Under the pieces are notes generated by a model. That model was not told the origin of the DNA. It saw only the letters and a program-made list of their open reading frames with translations, and did no database searches. From the NCBI GenBank assembly GCA_015680905.1, contig CM027377.1, forward strand, positions 37,348,501 through 37,412,500: a DNA stretch of 64,000 nt, written 5' to 3'. Positions 43,806-54,325 of the stretch are shown piece after piece. The DNA is from Coptis chinensis (Eukaryota; Streptophyta; Magnoliopsida; Ranunculales; Ranunculaceae). A program made the translations under genes and the position numbers. The stretch's first letter is position 1; every line of letters starts with the position of its first letter.

Positions 43806-44743
43806 TAAGGACTGTTAATCTGCAACATACGCTTCCAACATTTCAATTTACAATAATAACGCTCAAAAACCTAAATTATATATCTCATCCCTAAAATCTA
43901 GATTTCATCCATCAAAACCAATAAATTCTAAAAAAACCTAATGAATGAAAATGGTTAAATAGTAACAAACAAACAAAAATAGTGAAATAGTGAAGATGAA
44001 ATTTAGGAAATTGCTAAGAAATTACGTTGTTAGATTGTTTAACCCAATTGTTTATTATTATTATTATTTCCAATTTAATTCTAATTATAATGAAATAAGT
44101 AGCATAAAAATGTTAGGGAACTAATTATATAATTTCATTGACATAAGGAAGGTTATTCTAAATTATTAAAAAATAGAAAAAATTATATAATTTTAGTGAA
44201 GTGCGGAAAGTTCTTCTAAATCATTAAAAAAAGAGGGAGTTGATTCTAATTCTAGTGAGGGAGGTGCTTCCAATTTGTAAAAAAACAAAAAAAAACTATT
44301 TGGTGTTGCGTGAAGTTGGGCTATCTACTATCTATACTAGCAAAATGCACGTGCTCTGCACATGAGTGACAAATAAATCTTATTGGAGCGTACGTGAATA
44401 TGAACACATGTACAGTTGTAATAGATATACACTCATCCAAAAAAAGGGGAAAATTAATATGTATGACAAATAGTTATTCCGATTAAAATTGATAGTTTGG
44501 CATAACTTTTCAAACCTCTTTTGTTTGAAAATGTTGTTAATAATGAATCTTATAAAGCAATATAATTGCTACATATTCATTTTAGATGTGAGTTTGGCAT
44601 TGAAATAATTCTACATATTCCAAAAAGAATAGAGGGCTTGTTGCCTCAACAGAAGTATCTCATGTTATCTTCAAACCACTTGTTTCTGAAATTATTTCCT
44701 CAGTAATATAATCCTCAATATGTGACTTGTCAAGATGATGTTC

Positions 44744-45399
44744 TTAGTGGACATCTCCTATGTTTGCAACGTCTCTGTTTGTGCAATTGTGTTGACTTGA
44801 AGTATTACATGTGCCTCCACATGAATTAGTTATCAGACCACCCAATGCTAAAGCAGGATCTTTAAGCGCAACATCCTCTAGAAATCCAGCATTGGGAACG
44901 TAATGATCTTTTGTAGATTCCCTGTACATAAGTCCCTCCATAAATAAACCATATACATCCTGGACCAACTTGGAAAAACAATTAATTTTGCTCAGTATAC
45001 TTGCCAGAGTGAATCTCAGTAACAGTGGGTTATTCGCAAAGCCTTTCCACGCAAACCGGCTTTCGGTGCTTCGGTGCTACTCATAGTGGTCGTCCCGACC
45101 ACATCCAAATATTCCAAAGAGTATTCAAATGACAACTCCACCAAAATAATCATTATTTACAGTACATGGAAGAAATAAGAAAAGAAGTCCATGGAACAAT
45201 TGCTTACTGCAATTGAAGCTACATTGTTAGGGACTGTTACTGCCCATGGTTGCCCAACTTGTAAAGGAGGAACTCCTTTAGCAGGTATACTAATACCCAG
45301 AAACATCAAATATGCTCCCCCAATGATAAAATGTGATACCTTGCCCCCCTTGAGCATAAAAGTTGGCTAGGAGTTCAGGCACCTTCCAGAGTGCATAAA
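44744..45399 (-). pseudogene. eIF2D (ligatin) PUA-domain fragment
   Basis: Captured piece of the translation initiation/recycling factor eIF2D. Exon one (45399-45208) reads YALWKVPELLANF and, after a frame change, MLKGGKVSHFIIGGA, then ISIPAKGVPPLQVGQPWAV and VPNNVASIA before a GTAAGC donor. Exon two (about 45090-45011) reads TTMSSTEAPKAGLRGKALRI, THCY, stop, DSLW; its acceptor is lost. Exon three (about 44922-44744) reads ESTKDHYVPNAGFLEDVALK and DPALALGGLI. This is the PUA domain and following linker in correct order with introns kept. It sits nearest the 3' end of H3. Confidence 0.82.
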
Positions 45400-45494
45400 C
45401 TGCAAGATGAGAACAGGAGTCATAAGGGTGTCAAGCTAAGGCCTAAATGTATGGATAAAAAGCAAACTCTAGAGAGTTGCATATAATATAATAG

Positions 45495-45498
45495 AAAA

Positions 45499-45582
<84 letters not shown>
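45495..45582. repeat. TA microsatellite
   Basis: About 40 uninterrupted TA dinucleotides inside Helitron H3. It produces artefactual Tyr-Ile frames on the minus strand. Confidence 0.95.
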
Positions 45583-45583
<1 letters not shown>

Positions 45584-45930
45584 TTATTATAGCCACATTT
45601 TTTGACATACAAATGAATTAAGGTCTAGTTTTTTTGTGGAGATGGCCTCCCTACTATGAAGATCATTCTCACAAAAAATCATAATATTTGGATATGTCTA
45701 ACCATGTAAAAATTAGTGTTCATTAGTGTTCATTTTTTAATTTTTCATCTAACTGTCTAAAAGTTTTGTGAGCATGTTATAATGTTAGACTTCTTTGAAT
45801 GAGCTAAATTTTTGTGAGCATGTTCTCCATGGTGGGGAGATCATATCTACAAAAAATTAGCCCTTAATTCAACTTTTAAGTCTATGATTTTGCTTGGATT
45901 AATTTACAATGTGGCTATAATGTGCGCATA

Positions 45931-45961
45931 AGATTTAGTCGTTAGCTAATACTTCAGAGTA

Positions 45962-46036
<75 letters not shown>

Positions 46037-46042
46037 TAGAGC

Positions 46043-46089
<47 letters not shown>

Positions 46090-46115
46090 CTGAAGTATTA
46101 GCTAACGACTAAGTC
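45931..46115. repeat. Foldback with CT/CA/TA/GA microsatellite loop
   Basis: The left arm 45931-45966 (core TTAGTCGTTAGCTAATACTT) is the near-perfect inverse of the right arm 46080-46115, with two mismatches in 36 bases. The arms continue into a CT run on the left and a GA run on the right, which also pair. The loop consists of CA and TA runs. The whole could form a hairpin with a stem of roughly 60 bp. It lies in H3 between the eIF2D and CAMTA pieces. Confidence 0.9.
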
Positions 46116-48189
46116 TCCTCTTAACAGGGTAAATGTGCTTCCCTGTGAACACTGACTAACAAATGCATTCAAATAAATAATATTATAACAATAGCAAAGT
46201 TAAAAAGTCGTCCAAATCGCTTACACTAAGAATTTTCAAAATATGCTATGATTTTTTAAATCATTATGGGCCGATTGACAATGTTCATTCCCGCTACACT
46301 ACTTTCTATTGCAAACAAAAAAGATAACAAAATACAAATAGATACCAAAATAGATCACCTTTTTGTTGAAATAATTACCAAATTAAGGGATCAATTTCCA
46401 ACTATATTATTTCCAAACAACTAAGGGTGTCTTTGATAGGTGGGAATAAACTCCCTGTGAAACTTCCACATTAATAGGTTAGCTCAAACTCTTGATTTTG
46501 TACGAACTTTTCACAACTCAATAGTTTGCAGATTAGAGCTCTTTAGTGGTAAAAGTTGCCCACTAATATCCATAGGATTTCAGGTTATAAATAAGTGTGC
46601 AAATTGTATTCCCACAAATCGAAGTATCAAACACGGCCTATATTATGATACAGAATATGCACTCATGGTCACTATGTATGATGGTTCTCATCAGTTCTCA
46701 CTCACCAATTGCCACCCCAGTCACTGGCTTTAAGTGTGGATGGTGGGAAGCTATAAAGACTCCTCATAAGCAATCATGCTACCTATTGTTCATGAACAGC
46801 TGAAACAATATTGGTGTGATACCTTTGGCATACTCATGGTAGTACTTGTTAGGTGAACTTCACAGTTCATCATGCACAAAGCAATAATAGACTACATTTT
46901 GCTTTGTGCGCCTTGGTACTAGGTAGCAATTGGAGATGTTACTGTGCAACCGTAAATTCATCTTAATATAGTTTATACCACAATTTGACAATATCCAATC
47001 TACAGTAAGAAAATAAGAATGACACAACACCGGTTCAAAATTTATAGAAAAAACACAACCGTAATATATACACAATCAATTAACCAAAAAAACCATAAAT
47101 ACTTTTTTGATAAACCAAAGGGAAGCTGTTAGAATATTCTAACGTACATTTACTTGAGATGACGAAGAAGAAAAGCTCATATATAGACTACCATCATAGC
47201 ATGGAACTAAAATGTGGCCACTATATATTATTTATTGAAGTATAGAACTAATATTCCAAATGAAGCATTTACAAAAGATGTACCTCTGGAAAATGCCCGA
47301 GGGCCAAGGGCCAACAAAACCTGTCGTCTTGAATCAAAACTGCAAAGGGTGTCATTAGGGTCCCATAACAATACAGTTCAAATAAGAGTAATGTTTATCG
47401 TGCCCTACATTAAAAAAGATAGAGATGGACATGTATACCTAGAAAGCCCACACAGTTCCCACAAAACCCATAAGAGATTGTTAGATTGTGGAGTTGATGC
47501 AAGCAGAAGGACTACGGCATTCACCTGCAATCAAAAGTACTGATCTGAGACACTATATGTTCAACAGCAAAGGATCAAATAAGCTAAGAAATTGGGGAGT
47601 CATTTGACGTAACACATTGGATGTAGCATTGTGAAAGCAAGTTCCAGGAAAAGCGAAACAAAAAAGTTTGATAAAAGTTGTTCTCTCCCTGCTCTTCATC
47701 TTGTCACAGATGGAAACCCAACATTGAAAAAATGGGTACTAACCGACCATTAGAAAATGCAAAAACGGAAAACGAAAATTGGATTCTCTATTATGCTGGT
47801 TTGCATTTGGAAGAGACTTCTTGTATAATATAACTTCCCAAGTCAAAATCTGACATTGATTATGAAAGTTACCTTCAAGGCTATTCCAAGCCTTCCACGC
47901 CGTCTTTCACGCACCACTAAGAGCATGCTTTCACTGTAATCTATTATGGTTTTTCTTTTGGTATCTTGAGTAAATCCCTCTCACGCCTGATAGGGTTATA
48001 GTTGTTGGGCTATTCAGTAAGAAGTGGTCAATTATTGTCACCTTAGTTGGGAATTCGGAACATATTAATACATGCGGATGTCGTTTCCTACCACTTTTAC
48101 AATTTTTTTCTTCGACTGTGACTATGAATAAAATCTTTATTCATCACAAAGAATTTTAGAAAGAAGCACGTGGAAAGAAAAGCACACAC
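46116..48189. other. H3 interior without recognised gene
   Basis: Non-coding or unrecognised sequence between the eIF2D and CAMTA fragments. Splice-like signals occur near 47525 on the minus strand, but the adjoining frame matches no family I know. The next CAMTA exon expected downstream of the IQ region was looked for here and not found. Confidence 0.5.
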
Positions 48190-49829
48190 CTGAATCTTGA
48201 TAATCCACTGTCGAATTACCAAAAATTCCTTTCTTCCTTTCCAACCACAAAATTTGTTCTATATTCGCATGGCTGCAACATGTACGGGTTCATCATGCAA
48301 TCCCAGTCTATGTTTCTTAACAGAAATGAGTGAAAAAGCACGCTTGTTTGACATTCCAAATTTTTTTTCATCATACTCAACTAATTAACTACTTTCTTTG
48401 GAATGATTGTATCCTATACACTTGATGTATATGAGCAACAACTTGAGTAGCATTGCGAACAACAGTAAGTGAGTCTTTCAAAGAGGCATCTGGCACACCA
48501 ACATCAAATAATTGTGAAGCATTTTGATCAGGAACTTTCTGTGAAGCTTCTACCTCTGTAATATCTGCCGGAATATCATCCTTGGTGTCTTTCATAGTAA
48601 GAGATGAAAGATGAATGGTCAAAGAAGATTTTGCAAGGTAACCTGCAATCCCTTTGTATCCATTCATGTAAGCAAGGTCTGCAGGTGTCCTGCACGAAGG
48701 AAATTTGGGAGTTGGATTTGTGAATGCTCTAGAAGCTGCATCCAGAGGGACGAAAAGACCAACTGTCCGCTCCCTGAAAAGGAGTTAAAGAGAGAACTAT
48801 ATTATTAAAGTAGCAAAAAGAGTGTCTTAAATGGTCTTATTTCCATAACAATTCTTGCATCTACTGAAACCTATTGTACTATGTACTTTAGCGTATATAT
48901 GACTTTTTTGGTGCACCAAAAAAAAACACACCTACCACAAAATGCAGCCCAGTGAAGTGCAGTCCATCCATTCACATCACGGAAATTGATATTAACACCA
49001 TCGGCTACTGTATGTTGGTGCTATAGCCCAGTCATAGCCAAGAGCACCTGCTAAATGTATCACGCCTTGACCTTCTTTATCTAACAAATTGGGGCCTTTA
49101 CCGTCTTCAGTTACTTTCTGAATAAGCCATGAATTCAACTTCTCTTTTAGAACTTGCTCTTTTTCTTTCTCTGGGTAAAAGCCACCCATAGTAGTATTTA
49201 CCATTAGGAACCCTTCATCATCTTCTTTCATCATCAATCTGATACTACCACTTCTATGATAATTTTCACCATCAATTTCAACGGAACCAGTATGACAGAC
49301 AGAACCCAAGGATAATAAATTTTGAAATCGTATATTAAGGAGCATATCACTTGTGCCGACACTATTAGGATAAGTCATCATGAAATCTTGAGTACGGCTG
49401 GCTCGAAATTCAAATTCTCTCACTTCACTACAAGACACCTTGTTGGAGCATGTTACGTAAAAAGGGATCCTTCCCACTTTGTGATGTGGAGCATGGCATT
49501 GAATAACATTATTTGCTAAAACCTCAGCTGGAACTTCCACTTCCCCAAACATGCACGGCCATTTCTATTTTGCTAAATCTTCTCGACTCTTTAGGAACAT
49601 TCTGGAAATTAGTACCTGTTTAATAATTTATTAGAAAAACAATAAAACTAGTATTTAATAATTGTGTTCAAGACCTGTAAAGTAAAGTGTGTCATATAAA
49701 GCTTAGGCAAAATGCTTTAGCAAAAAACAGACCAACGAAAACAATAATACTTCACCTACCTTAGTTTCTGAGCCTTCATAGGCCCAGTTTGGTGAGAAGT
49801 CTGTAATACTGATCCACCCATCTCTCCAG
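48190..49829 (-). pseudogene. CAMTA2/3-type transcription activator fragment
   Basis: Captured middle-to-late part of a calmodulin-binding transcription activator. Exon one (about 49829-49763) reads ITDFSPNWAYEGSETK. Exon two (49615-48932) holds the TIG/IPT domain (CMFGEVEVPAEVLANN, HAPHHKVGRIPFYVTCSN, VREFEFR) and the start of the ankyrin repeats (GQGVIHLAGALGYDWAIAPT, NFRDVNGWTALHWAAFCG). Exon three (48773-48190) continues the ankyrins (RTPADLAYMNGYKGIAGYLA) and the first IQ motif (RNATQVVAHIHQVYRIQSFQ). It ends in the second IQ motif (a decayed MRIQNKF and KGRKEFLVIRQ) at a GTGTGT donor. Two glutamine codons of the IQ region have become TAG. The CG-1 domain and C-terminal exon are absent. 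Introns are retained, so genomic DNA was captured. Confidence 0.9.
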
Positions 49830-49845
49830 CTCTTTGTAATTATCC

Positions 49846-50133
49846 TCAAACAAATCTGGACAATAACAAATCTGGACAATTGCAGGATTTTGGTCCAGAT
49901 TCACCGTCCTTGCTTGAATCATCTACTGCTGCAATTATTGCATCTTCAATTGGCGTCTTCTCACTCTGAAAAATATAGAAACTTAACCATTGAAAATGCC
50001 CTTTCTCAAGCACAACATGACAAAGGACTTCCCCAGAGCAAGGAAAAGCAACATAAAAAAACCATTGAGTTTTTCTAGACATTCTATTGTTCAAGGAGGA
50101 AATAGTAAGGCCAAAGCTTGAATTAAGGTCCAT
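49846..50133 (-). pseudogene. Unidentified captured exon in H3
   Basis: A TTTTTCAG acceptor precedes SEKTPIEDAIIAAVDDSSKD, GESGPKSCNCPDL. The upstream part reads RKTQWFFYVAFPCSGEVLCH. Codon-like structure and a splice site suggest a genuine exon of some host gene lying between the SPL and CAMTA pieces, on the same strand. I do not recognise the family. It runs almost directly into the CAMTA fragment near 49850, where AATCTGGACAA is duplicated at the join. Confidence 0.45.
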
Positions 50134-50407
50134 AATTTTGTTATATTTTAGTCTTATCTGGGACCTCTAATTATCATTCTCCACCTAATACCTAAAAAAG
50201 GCTCTGCAGTGGGGAACTCTACACCGAAGCTATAATGTACAACAACAAATGCCGCAAAATTTCAAAATAGGTAAAATAGATAATAATAAACCTACAAATT
50301 AAGACTACAATACCAGGCAACTTTACCGCAAAGTGGTCTTGAGAAGAATTAAGTGAAAAATCATACAACAATCATAATAATAATAAAAGTAGAGAAAGTC
50401 ATTCCCA

Positions 50408-50882
50408 CCTTAGTATAGTCATCTCCGCAAGTGCTAGTCCTTTTTTGTCATGAGAACCAGATCGAACACGCTTGTTGGGCCTAGTTGTTGGCTCCTCACC
50501 GGAATACAAATTATTCCTCCAAGTTGCAGTGTAAGGTTCTCAGCTTCTTCATCCACTGACTTCTCCACAACCATAGGCTTTATTCCACTATCCCCTTTCT
50601 TTTCCTGCGCAGTCTCAACTATTCTAGGCAACGTAGTCTCCAAACTGCCAGCATTCTCAGCTTCAGATACCTTTGCAACAAACCTCACACTGTCCCACTC
50701 ATAAACTTTTGGATCCCAATTACCATTTGCGCTTTGATACCACTGTTGTTGTTGCTGGTTAAGGAAATTAGAATTTTGCCATGGTAAATCTCAGTTTTTC
50801 GCCATCGCGGTTCACGGTATCAACCAGCAAGCGGCTGGTGAACATAAATTGGATGAGCTACTTGTGCACCCACTTCTTCCAT
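50408..50882 (-). pseudogene. SPL14/16-type SBP protein, first-exon fragment
   Basis: The piece begins with an ATG at 50882 reading MEEVGAQVAHPIYVHQPLAG, the typical N-terminus of large squamosa-promoter-binding-like proteins of the SPL14/16 group. After frame changes it continues NSNFLNQQQQQWYQSANGNW, DPKVYEWDSVRFVAK, DEEAENLTLQLGG and RPNKRVRSGS, the segment just before the SBP zinc-finger domain. The SBP box itself is not present. It ends near a GTGGGA that could be the original exon donor. The fragment sits upstream of the CAMTA piece on the same strand. Confidence 0.85.
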
Positions 50883-51511
50883 TTTCTCTAACAATTTTCT
50901 CAAACAATTTCTTCTCTTGATTTCAAACTGCTACCTAAATGTAGCAAAAGAACAAACACCAACCAAAAACTAATAAATACTATTGAACATGAAAAGAATG
51001 AACAACAAATTTATTAGGAAAAGACTACAAAATGAATACATTTCCACTTTTTTTTCGCAATAATTTGTTTTCCACAAGATAAATTTCTGACTTCTAGCAA
51101 TCACACCAAGATCAAATCCCAAAAAAATCGACACTTCGAAACATATTCAATAACATTTCTCACTCAAAACCTTAACAACTTCGGAAAACAATATATTTAT
51201 TCAAAAGAGAACAGTTTCCATACCTTTAACCAGCTTCACAAATCTCAAATAAACAGACTTTACTTCATTTCTTCTGCTTATAACTTAATATCACATCCAT
51301 AAATAAACAAACTTTGTCCTCAAACAAAAAGTTTACTTAAATTCCATCTCAATGTAAATCCTATTGGTCATTAAACGCTTTACTTAAAACATTCAATCTT
51401 CTCTCATTGTCAACATAACCGGTGCAATTGAAAGTTTTTTTTTTGGGAGTCGGAAGAGCGGGGAGATTTGGGGATAAACAACACTTTAAAAGTATATACT
51501 CTTATCTTGAA

Positions 51512-51889
51512 TTTAACTGGTACAATTCCCTCTTCAACAGCCGCTCTGGTTGCATTTAGTGCATCAGTAACTCTGTCTTTTTTCTCCCCGACTTCAGTTT
51601 CGCTAGCACCTCCAATCTACAAGAAAACTCATGCCAAGCACTCATAAGCTTCCCATACCACATATAATATTTCAATAGGCTAATCAGATTGTAGTCATCT
51701 GGCTATTTTGGAAATTATTTGCAAATACAAAAAATCGACACCATTATCACCATTAAGAAAAGAGAAACAATTTATTGAAAATTAGGACCAAACCTTTAAA
51801 ACAGCAACACCACCAGAAAGCTTTGCAAGTCTCTCTTGCAACTTCTCCTTTTCATAATCAGAAGTGCTTGATTCCACAACAGACCTTAG
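51512..51889 (-). pseudogene. Mitochondrial CPN60 (HSP60) fragment
   Basis: Two exons of a group I chaperonin, mitochondrial type. The first (51889-51794) reads [32 protein letters not shown] and ends at GTTTGG. The second (51616 to about 51512) starts after TTGTAG and reads [33 protein letters not shown]. This is the conserved stretch just before the GGG motif of the equatorial domain. Homology stops at about 51512, in or next to the GGG codons. No stop codon lies inside either exon. It is nearest the 5' end of H3. Confidence 0.9.
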
Positions 51890-51892
51890 CTG

Positions 51893-52449
51893 TTACAAGA
51901 ATGAAACATGTTACTATTCCTTAACAATTCACATTATTCAATAGATTCAAGCAATCACTTGTCCCATAAATTGACTAAAGTTGTAAGATGTTTGATTAGA
52001 GTGTTGGAACAGAAAGGATTTCATTGTAATGAGAAAAAAATAATATGAGAAACAGAAGAGATCGATGGGAGAGAAGGGAAAAGAATCGCTTCGTATTCTC
52101 TCGTTAGACTTTTCCTTTTCTTAACGTCTTATTAAATAACCCAATTATTGCTAATTAAATGCCATTTATATAGTAAGGCGTACAATTCAAAATGGCGTGG
52201 AATTGGTTTTTTAATATACTGCCACATGAAAAGACTGATTGCTCCTATTCAAAGGTGTTGAGCAATATTTTTATTTAAGGACAATATCAGTACTGAAAAT
52301 TTATAAAGGCATAAAAAGACAAAGTAGTCCTCATTAATAAATATCTAGGCATCTGATTTTATTATTCATCCAGGGGTATTATGCGTAAGAAAAAGACCCG
52401 GATGAATTTAAGAGGCCACGATCATTATAGGATATACTACTAGTAGAGA
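51893..52449. other. 5' part of H3, no gene recognised
   Basis: Between the CPN60 piece and the H3 5' terminus. AT-rich, with no reading frame of note. The terminal 20 bases on the minus strand begin TCTCTACTAG. Confidence 0.6.
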
Positions 52450-53780
52450 TACTAAAGTAGAGACCTCTAAGAAAAAAAAATTCTATCCTAGGTGGCGCTC
52501 TAATATGCGAGATAGTTTTTTCTCTCCCTACCATGTATGCCACGTGGAACCTATACAAAATTTATAGAAAGAGCCGATTTATTAGGAAATTGGAAATTCC
52601 AAAATTCAAGCCGATTAATTAGGACATTCAAGGGCAGAGCATTAAAAAAAAGTCAATTTACTACGAAAATATTAGTAGAATTTAATAGGAGCATGTAAAC
52701 GTGGTATGATCCTAGGTGGACTCTTCTTAATTGAATCGAACACTAATGCTTCCAAAATTATAAACAAGAAATGGGCCTCAGCCCCCTCAATCCAATCCGG
52801 TTATGTGTAAACTCCTCAGTCATGAAAGTATCCATAGAACCTCCCTATTATTTAGGCCTTGGCCAAATAAACTCCTCGCTTTCCAAATTGTAAGCAATTT
52901 GCGGTCTAATTTTTATCCCCTGAAATTTTTGGTTTCCTATTATACCCTTTTCATTAAATCAAGATCCTTCGAAGAAGAACTATCTTTTCCAATAAAGCAG
53001 CGAAGATTCTTTGTTATACGAAAAAAAGAACACCGATTTCTTGTGATAGAAAATGGATTCATGGATAACCATATTTTATAGGTACAAATTTGAGTGGTAT
53101 ATATTCAAGGTGGGAGAGAAGTTGAATATGCTCATTGCGTATTTGTGGAAATGCCCAAGAGGAAAATAATTGTATGAACCACAAGCAAGAAGCCAATAAA
53201 AATATGAAACAAGAAAATGAATGAAAGCAGTGGTGTTGCAAGAGGAAAATAAAAAGCGCAAGCCGCAATTGAACTAACAATTGGCACTGTACCAAATTTT
53301 TAAATATAAACAAGCTAAGTATGACTTCTGATTTTTTCTGTGAAAATTTATATTTATATAGTTGGTTAACATAATTTTTTTTTTTTCCATATGAAAACTG
53401 TCATTTGCATAGTAGTTTTTGAAACTGAACATGTCTGTAAATTTGAGATAACATATGAAAGTTTATATTTTCATAGTAGTTAACCTATGCAATTTTATAT
53501 TTACATATGAAAGCATATATTTTCATACTAATTAAACAAGAAATTGGGCGACAGAGCTGCTTCAAAAATAAAATTACTTTCAAAGACTTGGAAATATTAT
53601 TTTTGGGTTTTAATACTATTTTGGATTTTTTCATTACTAAAAGTCGTTATTTTTTAAAATGTTTTTGAAATTGGGGATACGACTCGAGATCACCCGCGAA
53701 ACCTTTTTTTCAAACTTTTTGTCTTCTCTTTTTACCCTTTAACCGTTTTTGATTAAAAAAAAAAAAAAACTTCACAATTT
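52450..53780. other. H2 5' interior, no gene recognised
   Basis: The first 70 bases match the 5' region of H1 (AGAGACC, GTGGCGCTCTAATATG). The rest is AT-rich. A 92-codon open frame at 52803-53081 has no family resemblance. Several ATATGAAA...TTTCATA motifs recur at 53390-53540 and 55190. Confidence 0.5.
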
Positions 53781-53803
53781 CTTCACGGACATTCACCCGA
53801 GAC

Positions 53804-54325
53804 ATGAGTGGTTTACTTCACGCATGCAATGCACCATATTCACAAGAAAGGATCACTTGCGTCACCTTAACTGGTGACAGCACGGGAAGACTCATGGAAT
53901 ATAATCCTATGAGTGGAGAAGTGATGGTGCTGAAGAGTGGTCTGAAGTTTGCGAACGGGGTTGCTCTTAGCGAGAACAATGACTTTCTTCTAGTGGCTGA
54001 AATCGATGATGCACGAATTATAAGATTTTGGCTTGAAGGGACAAAATCAAACACAACCAAAATCATTGTTGAACTTCCAGGAGCACCATATAATATTAAG
54101 AGAACTGCCAATGGTGAATTTTGGGTCGCAATAAACAATGGGAGGTCAATTCCCTCTTACAATGCTGGTGAAATCATTGGTGTTCGACTTGACAAAGAAG
54201 ACAGAATCTTTGAGGGCCTCCACGACAATGGGATTTTGGAGTCAATTACCGAACTTGAAGAACGCAATGGTCTGTTCTTGGTAGGCTCTAATATTGCGCC
54301 ATCTGTTGGCGTTTTTAGAATTTAA
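53804..54325 (+). CDS. Strictosidine-synthase-like C-terminal segment in H2
   Basis: An open frame of 173 codons matches the C-terminal half of strictosidine synthase-like (SSL) proteins, six-bladed beta-propellers usually targeted to the secretory pathway or vacuole. Visible motifs are TGDSTGRLMEYNP, LKFANGVALS, FLLVAEIDDARIIRFW, ELPGAPYNIKR, GEFWVAINNGR and the end GLFLVGSNIAPSVGVFRI. Full-length SSL proteins have roughly 330-400 residues; here the N-terminal half with its signal peptide is absent. The ATG at 53804 is internal to the family and in frame with upstream FTRD, so it is probably not the original start. No stop or frame change occurs, in contrast to the gene pieces in H3. Whether it is expressed is unknown. 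It is best read as Helitron cargo. Confidence 0.75.
   Translation: MSGLLHACNAPYSQERITCVTLTGDSTGRLMEYNPMSGEVMVLKSGLKFANGVALSENNDFLLVAEIDDARIIRFWLEGTKSNTTKIIVELPGAPYNIKRTANGEFWVAINNGRSIPSYNAGEIIGVRLDKEDRIFEGLHDNGILESITELEERNGLFLVGSNIAPSVGVFRI

Follow-up and report, generated by a model that had tools for sequence, protein, structure and literature searches.

The Helitron and its insertion site

In the window (the whole 64,000-nucleotide stretch of Coptis chinensis contig CM027377.1 analyzed here), a non-autonomous Helitron carries pieces of five host genes, encoding CPN60, an SPL protein, tripeptidyl-peptidase 2 (TPPII), a CAMTA, and eIF2D, all in the sense orientation of the element (Table 1). 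Each of the five pieces matches a separate donor-like locus at 93-95% identity, introns included and with sharp ends, which bears out the proposal of the preliminary description that one Helitron holds fragments of several unrelated genes in a single orientation.

Table 1. Coordinates of the element and its components in the window, in element order, with the matches that identify them.
Feature	Position	Strand	Match or evidence
Whole non-autonomous Helitron, 8,113 bp	44337..52449	-	exact termini in other copies; empty site; no ORF >190 aa
5' terminal backbone (TC end)	52018..52449	-	common to elements without adjoining gene pieces, e.g., L043 from 52019
CPN60 (mitochondrial HSP60-like), two exons with introns	51504..52017	-	C5:95373080-95373599 and C5:95591716-95592233, uninterrupted, 93-94%; PDB 2.9e-27
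Small piece, 151 bp	51353..51503	-	partial match C7:73140941-73141066, 89-93%
SPL (SBP-box): upstream DNA, start codon, most of exon 1	50454..51352	-	C6:11577471-11578361, 93%
TPPII, first part	49812..50448	-	gene-like locus C7:2.19M, 93%; PDB 3lxu E 0.07
CAMTA (end of TIG, ankyrin, IQ), nested in TPPII exon	47933..49812	-	C4:9958208-9960081, 95%; junctions
TPPII, second part	47657..47929	-	C7 locus L048 2484-2756, 94%
Piece Y, joined to TPPII	47003..47656	-	also in L049, C8:71.76M (in part), L031-L034
Interspersed repeat, ~514 bp	46438..46951	.	whole or partial at several other loci
eIF2D (PUA region and next exon) with intron	44641..46479	-	C64:55410-56245, 94%; C8:59154022-59155862, 92-95%; PDB 5oa3 7.9e-15
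3' terminal backbone, hairpin and CTAG end	44337..44635	-	common to L041 and L043, both without eIF2D beside the backbone

Read on the minus strand, the element follows an A, begins with TCTCTACTAGTAG (52449), and closes with GTGCAGAGCAC-GTGCATTTTG-CTAG (44337) before a T, so that the TC and CTRR termini of Helitrons are present (TCTCTACTAG...CTAG). The 20-bp 5' terminal pattern and the 25-bp 3' terminal pattern each occur once in the window at up to three mismatches (0.01 and 0.00 occurrences expected, respectively). When the genome was searched (935.6 Mb, nine chromosome-sized contigs), 34 of the 43 matches listed for the 3' 464 bp start exactly at base 44337, and 35 of the 41 listed for the 5' 450 bp stop exactly at 52449, the window's own copy being counted in both. 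An A precedes the 5' end in 9/9 copies (L043, whose 5' end is unaligned at the last base, was left out) and a T follows the 3' end in 10/10, with flanks common to four of the former copies and to two of the latter, so the independent sites are fewer than these counts. In copies of the invaded repeat that lack the element, sequence continues across the insertion point with zero duplicated bases, and the joined flanks are ungapped at the joint in all five loci fetched, which were chosen from alignment rows spanning it. The ends earlier described as exact are thus found unchanged in other copies and border an empty site, with insertion between A and T and no target-site duplication. Terminal inverted repeats were sought between the terminal 60-bp stretches and no inverted match was found; the element has neither of the two features, such repeats and a target duplication, that characterize Pack-MULEs and other TIR elements.

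The hairpin near the 3' end has a 7-bp stem and a 3-nt loop and lies 11 nt before the terminus, in line with the distance of about 10-12 bp usual for Helitrons. Its stem bases are identical in nine of the ten copies compared (the exception is L041), and its energy is no stabler than that of shuffled sequence (z -0.6). Because the largest open frame inside the element is at most 190 aa, no intact RepHel is encoded. The Rep domain is abundant in the genome, with at least 157 matches to Helitron_like_N and none in 14 controls; the search for a RepHel-bearing element with the same ends identified none, and at the one candidate examined (C5:72.68M) a matching 5' end was absent from the 3 kb that were read.

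Gene pieces and donor-like loci

The CPN60, CAMTA, and eIF2D fragments named in the preliminary description are all supported by database matches (Table 1). For CAMTA these consist of Pfam Ank_2 at 1.8e-9, with TIG at E 0.1 only, and the CPN60 piece also matches Pfam at 6.4e-5, below the curated cut-off. The SPL assignment was likewise upheld at the level of the SBP-box family: Pfam gave a chance-level match only for the piece itself, and its identity comes from the donor locus, where the same exon continues into an SBP domain (2e-15). No meaningful Pfam family was returned for TPPII, SPL exon 1, the PUA piece of eIF2D, or the short ORFs left without assignment.

An exon previously listed as unknown is a host-gene exon, which we take to be TPPII, and the CAMTA piece lies inside it. 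The name rests on the C7 donor locus, on resemblance to plant TPPII sequence, and on a PDB match to TPP2 that is weak (E 0.07). All four TPPII exon queries find matches at C7 and at no other locus; a stop is listed in two of the four rows, perhaps from reading beyond exon ends. No exons were recognized in the 4 kb further upstream at C7 (L052), and additional TPPII fragments occur on C3, C8, and C6. A 37-residue piece at 47980-47870, for which a PDB search gave no match, is comprised of TPPII plus CAMTA intron.

Donors were assigned by best match, and the number of candidates differs among the pieces. For SPL there is one strong non-element locus in the genome, and for CAMTA one strong locus plus a 69% relative on C101, while CPN60 has two loci spanning the whole piece plus partial ones. 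Candidates for eIF2D are on C64 (94%), C8 (92%), and C6 (88%), with partial ones on C7, C3, and C9. Limiting this piece to 44641-45502 was rejected because the C8 locus extends the match to 46479; positions 45582-46022 inside the piece have no counterpart in the C8 locus. Several fragments had been said to end at exon borders, and examination by eye found this for none of ten piece ends: four are inside exons, and the rest are in introns or upstream DNA.

Nested capture, copies, and partial relatives

The CAMTA piece interrupts an exon of TPPII; at C7, C3, and C8 this exon is intact. Between the two TPPII parts, 18 bp of the C7 exon are missing, and the CAMTA/TPPII junctions have a 1-bp overlap on one side and three unassigned bases on the other. 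This nesting indicates sequential captures, with at least CAMTA entering DNA that had already been captured. In the genome searches made, gene-gene junctions were seen only at copies of the element. Two internal junctions, neither of them gene-gene, also occur elsewhere: that of TPPII with piece Y on C3 (L049) and C8, without CAMTA and without known Helitron ends, and that of the eIF2D intron with the repeat on C9, again without known Helitron ends. The C3 and C8 loci may be either earlier stages of the Helitron or its direct donor.

The CAMTA-bearing assembly is present at six loci representing three independent insertion sites, as the flanks of the window copy, L030, and the L029 group are unrelated to one another. 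Four copies (C4:44.17M, C6:56.05M, C6:79.50M, and C1:72.84M) have common 5' flanks, which in the two copies read furthest agree at 94% over 1.8 kb; a larger repeat thus carried some of the copies as it spread. Other relatives hold only some of the pieces within the stretches read, including L038 (51504-52449), L031-L034 (44337-47679), and L035 (from 50202), and these support stepwise assembly.

Divergence per fragment had been suggested as a means of ordering the captures. Donor-window K2P distances are 0.034 for CPN60, 0.044 for SPL, 0.038 and 0.065 for the TPPII parts (C7), 0.043 for CAMTA, and 0.049 for eIF2D (C64), and this comparison gave no reliable order; we draw none from it, because the donors evolve under different constraint. 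For CPN60, SPL, and eIF2D, donor-copy divergence is about equal to copy-copy divergence. That of CAMTA (0.043-0.060) is smaller than the copy-copy values (0.065-0.094), and that of the first TPPII part (0.037-0.047) is slightly larger (copy-copy 0.020-0.040), a pattern that leans toward agreement with the nesting, in which TPPII came before CAMTA.

Acquisition of host DNA and comparison with known systems

How Helitrons acquire several genes is still argued, with end bypass, break filling, and stepwise transposition as proposed routes. Because this genome supplies the donors, the junctions, relatives with part of the set, and a site that the element has not occupied, shared junctions reveal some of the order of gain and the mechanism can be constrained. 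This non-autonomous Helitron very probably gained host DNA stepwise inside itself and then spread as a unit, with the gene fragments as passengers. Its ends would be recognized in trans by the RepHel of other Helitrons. The gains may reflect error-prone fill-in at breaks or stalled forks inside the element, as the junctions suggest; sequence would be copied from an unrelated locus and then rejoined, leaving an overlap or unassigned bases of 0-5 bp. The entry of CAMTA into the captured TPPII exon, with 18 bp replaced, makes it an evenly balanced possibility that some Helitron gene capture is copying into internal breaks and not read-through at the ends. If so, the same 0-5 bp signature at other junctions would point to break repair as a general gene-collecting route of this Helitron family.

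Recombination of two Helitrons, one with CPN60 on its 5' side and the other with TPPII, Y, and eIF2D on its 3' side, with SPL and CAMTA added later, is plausible but somewhat doubtful. Within the stretches read, none longer than 10 kb, L038-L040 have the 5' part alone in common with the element and L031-L034 the 3' part alone, as far as 47679, although loss or replacement of the other half in each relative gives the same pattern; such an event is also compatible with stepwise internal gain, as one of its steps. It is rather unlikely that faulty rolling-circle initiation or termination (end bypass, or failure to stop at the 3' terminator) added flanking DNA at the ends, with later rounds moving the pieces inward. 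In keeping with this, CPN60 lies next to the 5' backbone and eIF2D next to that of the 3' end, and end bypass has reportedly been shown for the bat Helraiser; however, a CAMTA piece in mid-exon with TPPII on both sides is not readily produced in this way, and no remnants of terminal backbone lie between the pieces (the best chance match in the element interior is 15 bp, E 0.39).

A working chimeric gene, in which the SPL start codon and exon 1 are fused in frame to TPPII and spliced onward, is very improbable. A single frame does cross the SPL-TPPII join (RVRSGS-HD-KKGLALAE), but the SPL exon holds at least one stop in all six copies scanned, and TPPII in the window enters CAMTA out of frame and reaches a stop after 11 codons. 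Given the mid-exon joins and these SPL-exon stops, a protein product, and with it a functional chimera, appears unlikely from the sequence, and the five "genes" at 44337-52449 should be treated in annotation as fragments. Segmental duplication of a gene cluster was rejected, since, despite the four copies with common 5' flanking DNA, the donor-like loci are unlinked (CPN60 on C5, SPL on C6, TPPII on C7, CAMTA on C4, and eIF2D on C64 and C8), the flanks of the window copy and of L030 are unrelated and both copies have exact Helitron termini, the empty site contradicts it, and the arrangement named beforehand as refuting capture, the named genes side by side in the same order elsewhere without Helitron ends, was not found in the genome searches made.

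Stepwise capture has been published for multi-gene Helitrons of maize, which resemble this element in combining gene fragments from different chromosomes, in the CTAG end, and in having relatives with nested subsets that imply sequential capture (PMC3288121). The present case differs in its base-resolved donors and junctions, in one capture interrupting an earlier-captured exon, and in the genes involved. Expressed maize Helitrons likewise combine exons from unrelated genes and give chimeric, alternatively spliced transcripts (PMC4528327), whereas here four of the ten piece ends are in mid-exon and the frames are broken. The Mothra non-autonomous Helitrons of rice share the TC/CTAG ends, a 3' hairpin ~10-13 bp from the end, a gene fragment, and the lack of RepHel, but are described as high-copy with a 2-kb consensus (PMC4683698), compared with 8 kb and five genes here. 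Pack-MULEs and other gene-capturing TIR elements similarly mobilize host gene fragments (PMC13317346), and are set apart from this element by their terminal inverted repeats and target duplication. The element is therefore a further instance of a phenomenon already known, one for which the evidence on donors and junctions is unusually complete.

Element ends and insertion site

The preliminary description of one Helitron with pieces of at least four unrelated host genes was checked against actual donor loci and element copies in the searchable genome, a 935.6-Mb assembly of 116 contigs (C1 to C9 each 85–125 Mb) in which the window is C1:37348501–37412500. Its main reading is correct and the observation real, as confirmed by exact ends, an empty site and separate donor-like loci. 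Read on the minus strand, the element begins at 52449 with TCTCTACTAGTAG, preceded by A, and ends at 44337 with a hairpin and CTAG, followed by T (diagnostic Helitron ends are given in PMC4683698). In a genome search with the 3' 464 bp, at least 34 of the 43 matches listed start exactly at 44337 (a further two start one base later), and with the 5' 450 bp, at least 35 of the 41 matches listed end exactly at 52449; the window copy is part of both tallies, which are minimum values because only the best candidates were scored. The host base before the 5' end is A in nine of nine copies, four of them with common flanks (L043, a locus whose 5' end is unaligned to the last base, was omitted), and the base after the 3' end is T in 10 of 10, two with common flanks. 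No inverted match was found between the terminal 60-bp stretches, and no open frame longer than 190 aa was found within the element, which thus lacks an intact RepHel.

For the empty site, 251 bp of one flank were fused to 201 bp of the other. Among 38 non-self rows, 19 cross the joint with 13–24 bp on the short side, six cross with 6–8 bp, and 13 stop short of it. Five of the 25 crossing rows were fetched (8–18 bp short side, 83–87% identity), and all five are continuous across TATCTATA/TACTAAAGTAG, gapless at the joint and with no duplicated bases; an 8,113-bp unit was therefore inserted at an A/T site within the end of another repeat. The insertion lies ∼15 bp inside the end of this invaded repeat (44086–44336 and 52450–52650), which, by eye, looks like the 5' end of a second Helitron family. 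About 1.3 kb past the element, an open frame at 53753–54325 has a strictosidine-synthase domain (Pfam Str_synth, 1e-15).

Captured pieces and the nested CAMTA capture

The element was aligned by blastn to the fetched loci, and the piece boundaries are those of the sharp blocks obtained.

Captured host pieces with their donor-like loci and nucleotide identity
Piece	Window position	Donor-like locus	Identity
CPN60	51504–52017	C5:95.373M	93.7%
SPL	50454–51352	C6:11.577M	93.0%
TPPII, first part	49812–50448	C7:2.191M	92.8%
CAMTA	47933–49812	C4:9.958M	94.8%
TPPII, second part	47657–47929	C7:2.191M	93.8%
eIF2D, against C64	44641–45502	C64	94.0%
eIF2D, against C8	44641–45581 and 46023–46479	C8:59.154M	92.7% and 94.0%

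The SPL donor exon continues into an SBP domain (Pfam 2e-15), and a Pre-PUA exon (1.7e-12) is present at the C64 locus of eIF2D; other eIF2D-like loci occur at C6:45.67M (88%) and, in part, on C7, C3, and C9. The CAMTA donor extends in both directions into exons that are presumably CAMTA-like as well, and a 69% relative lies on C101. The TPPII name is a putative one, given for resemblance to TPPII sequence and a weak PDB match to 3lxu (E 0.07); among 14 matches, C7 is the one locus with all four typed TPPII exons. Two nearly identical CPN60 loci (C5:95373080 and C5:95591716; K2P 0.002) lie 218 kb apart, and more divergent CPN60-like exon pairs are clustered at C4:106.4–107.7M. A MITE-like insertion in the eIF2D intron (45586–45921; ends ATTATAGCCACATT and its reverse complement) falls within 45490–46070, a stretch missing from the copy at locus L030.

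The donor matches cover introns, which most of the fragments had been described as retaining. Exon borders, at which several fragments had been said to end, coincide with none of the 10 piece ends when read by eye: four are mid-exon (SPL 3', TPPII 5', CAMTA 5', eIF2D 3') and six lie in introns or upstream DNA, both CPN60 ends lying ∼12 bases inside an intron. SPL, the 151-bp piece, CPN60 and the 5' backbone adjoin within 0–1 bp, and five unassigned bases stand at both the SPL-TPPII (50449–50453) and eIF2D-3' backbone (44636–44640) joins.

CAMTA is flanked on either side by TPPII parts, overlapping by 1 bp at 49812 and leaving three unassigned bases at 47930–47932. At the C7 locus the two TPPII parts lie 18 bp apart inside one open exon, and at a C3 locus 20 bp apart; the element lacks these bases and has CAMTA in their place, so TPPII was captured before CAMTA. 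Terminal backbone copies were not found in the element interior (best match 15 bp, E 0.39), and this, with the position of CAMTA within an exon, favors a route in which DNA would have been copied into a break inside the element, by a presumed repair step and at least for CAMTA, over end bypass.

Relatives, copies and divergence

Fourteen fetched loci (L-numbers) were scored at ten junctions, in stretches of up to 10 kb, such that an absent piece is one absent from the stretch read. Both CAMTA joins (47931 and 49812) are present in L029, L030, and L036, and the one at 49812 also in L037; the stretches read for L035 and L037 stop before the CAMTA joins absent from them. The SPL joins are spanned only in L029, L030, and L035–L037, the CPN60-5' backbone join in L029, L030, and L035–L040, and the eIF2D-3' backbone join in L029–L034. 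Loci L031–L034 match 44337–47679, including the joint of TPPII with piece Y and 22 bp of TPPII, the rest of which is absent; at L049 (C3:55795773–55797314) and at C8:71763530–71764825, TPPII fragments adjoin Y and CAMTA is absent. The start of L049 and the border of TPPII in the element are only ∼10 bp apart. L031–L034 (C5:95.73M, C1:10.18M, C5:10.06M, C8:86.05M), mostly 93–97% alike over up to 9.8 kb, form a sister lineage sharing the 3' end and eIF2D piece, with different DNA upstream of the 47679 equivalent. Read most simply, the backbone ends would be the oldest part, and CPN60, and eIF2D with TPPII-Y, would have been gained before SPL and CAMTA; loss in the relatives is a possible alternative.

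The CAMTA piece occurs at six loci, some read in part: the window, C4:44.17M, C6:∼56.04–56.05M, C6:79.50M, C8:58.68M, and C1:72.84M. Four of these (C4:44.17M, C6:∼56.05M, C6:79.50M, C1:72.84M; fetched as L029, L035–L037, and L053–L057) have common 5' flanking DNA, and three of the four have a common end at ∼44964 with ∼1.4 kb of common DNA beyond, so they seem to have spread inside a larger repeat carrying the Helitron. This group, the window and L030 thus represent three independent insertion sites.

Donor-window K2P is 0.034–0.065, depending on the piece. Distances between copies are similar in size; they exceed the donor distances for CAMTA and fall slightly below them for the first TPPII part. 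These values fit captures shortly before the spread of the element; divergence per fragment, proposed earlier for ordering the captures, does not order them firmly. One or more stops interrupt the SPL exon in six of six copies scanned (window, L029, L030, L035, L036, L037), in a scan where donor queries necessarily match the loci they were taken from. The reading frame is kept across the join of SPL with TPPII; in the window, TPPII runs out of frame into CAMTA and meets a stop after 11 codons.

Helitron machinery and known gene capture

At least 157 Helitron_like_N domain matches occur in this genome, against zero in the 14 genomes used as controls. Several Rep-domain matches lie in open frames of more than 500 codons, and on these grounds the genome may contain autonomous Helitrons that were active recently. 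One candidate autonomous partner on C5 has a matching 3' end with Rep ∼17 kb upstream; a matching 5' end was not found within the 3 kb read.

In maize Helitrons, captured fragments are biased to sense orientation. More than 90% of the maize Helitrons in one study's set carry gene fragments, and stepwise capture by sequential transpositions was argued there from relatives with nested homology (PMC3288121). Helitron gene capture is described as frequent in maize and rare in both rice and Arabidopsis (PMC2575219). Gene capture has been reviewed (PMC13317346), and chimeric transcripts from Helitrons have been described (PMC4528327). Among the titles listed for Helitron literature on break repair and microhomology, none is on capture into an already captured exon. 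The element type itself is already known; the present case adds a donor-resolved nested capture, which supports at least one insertion internal to the element.
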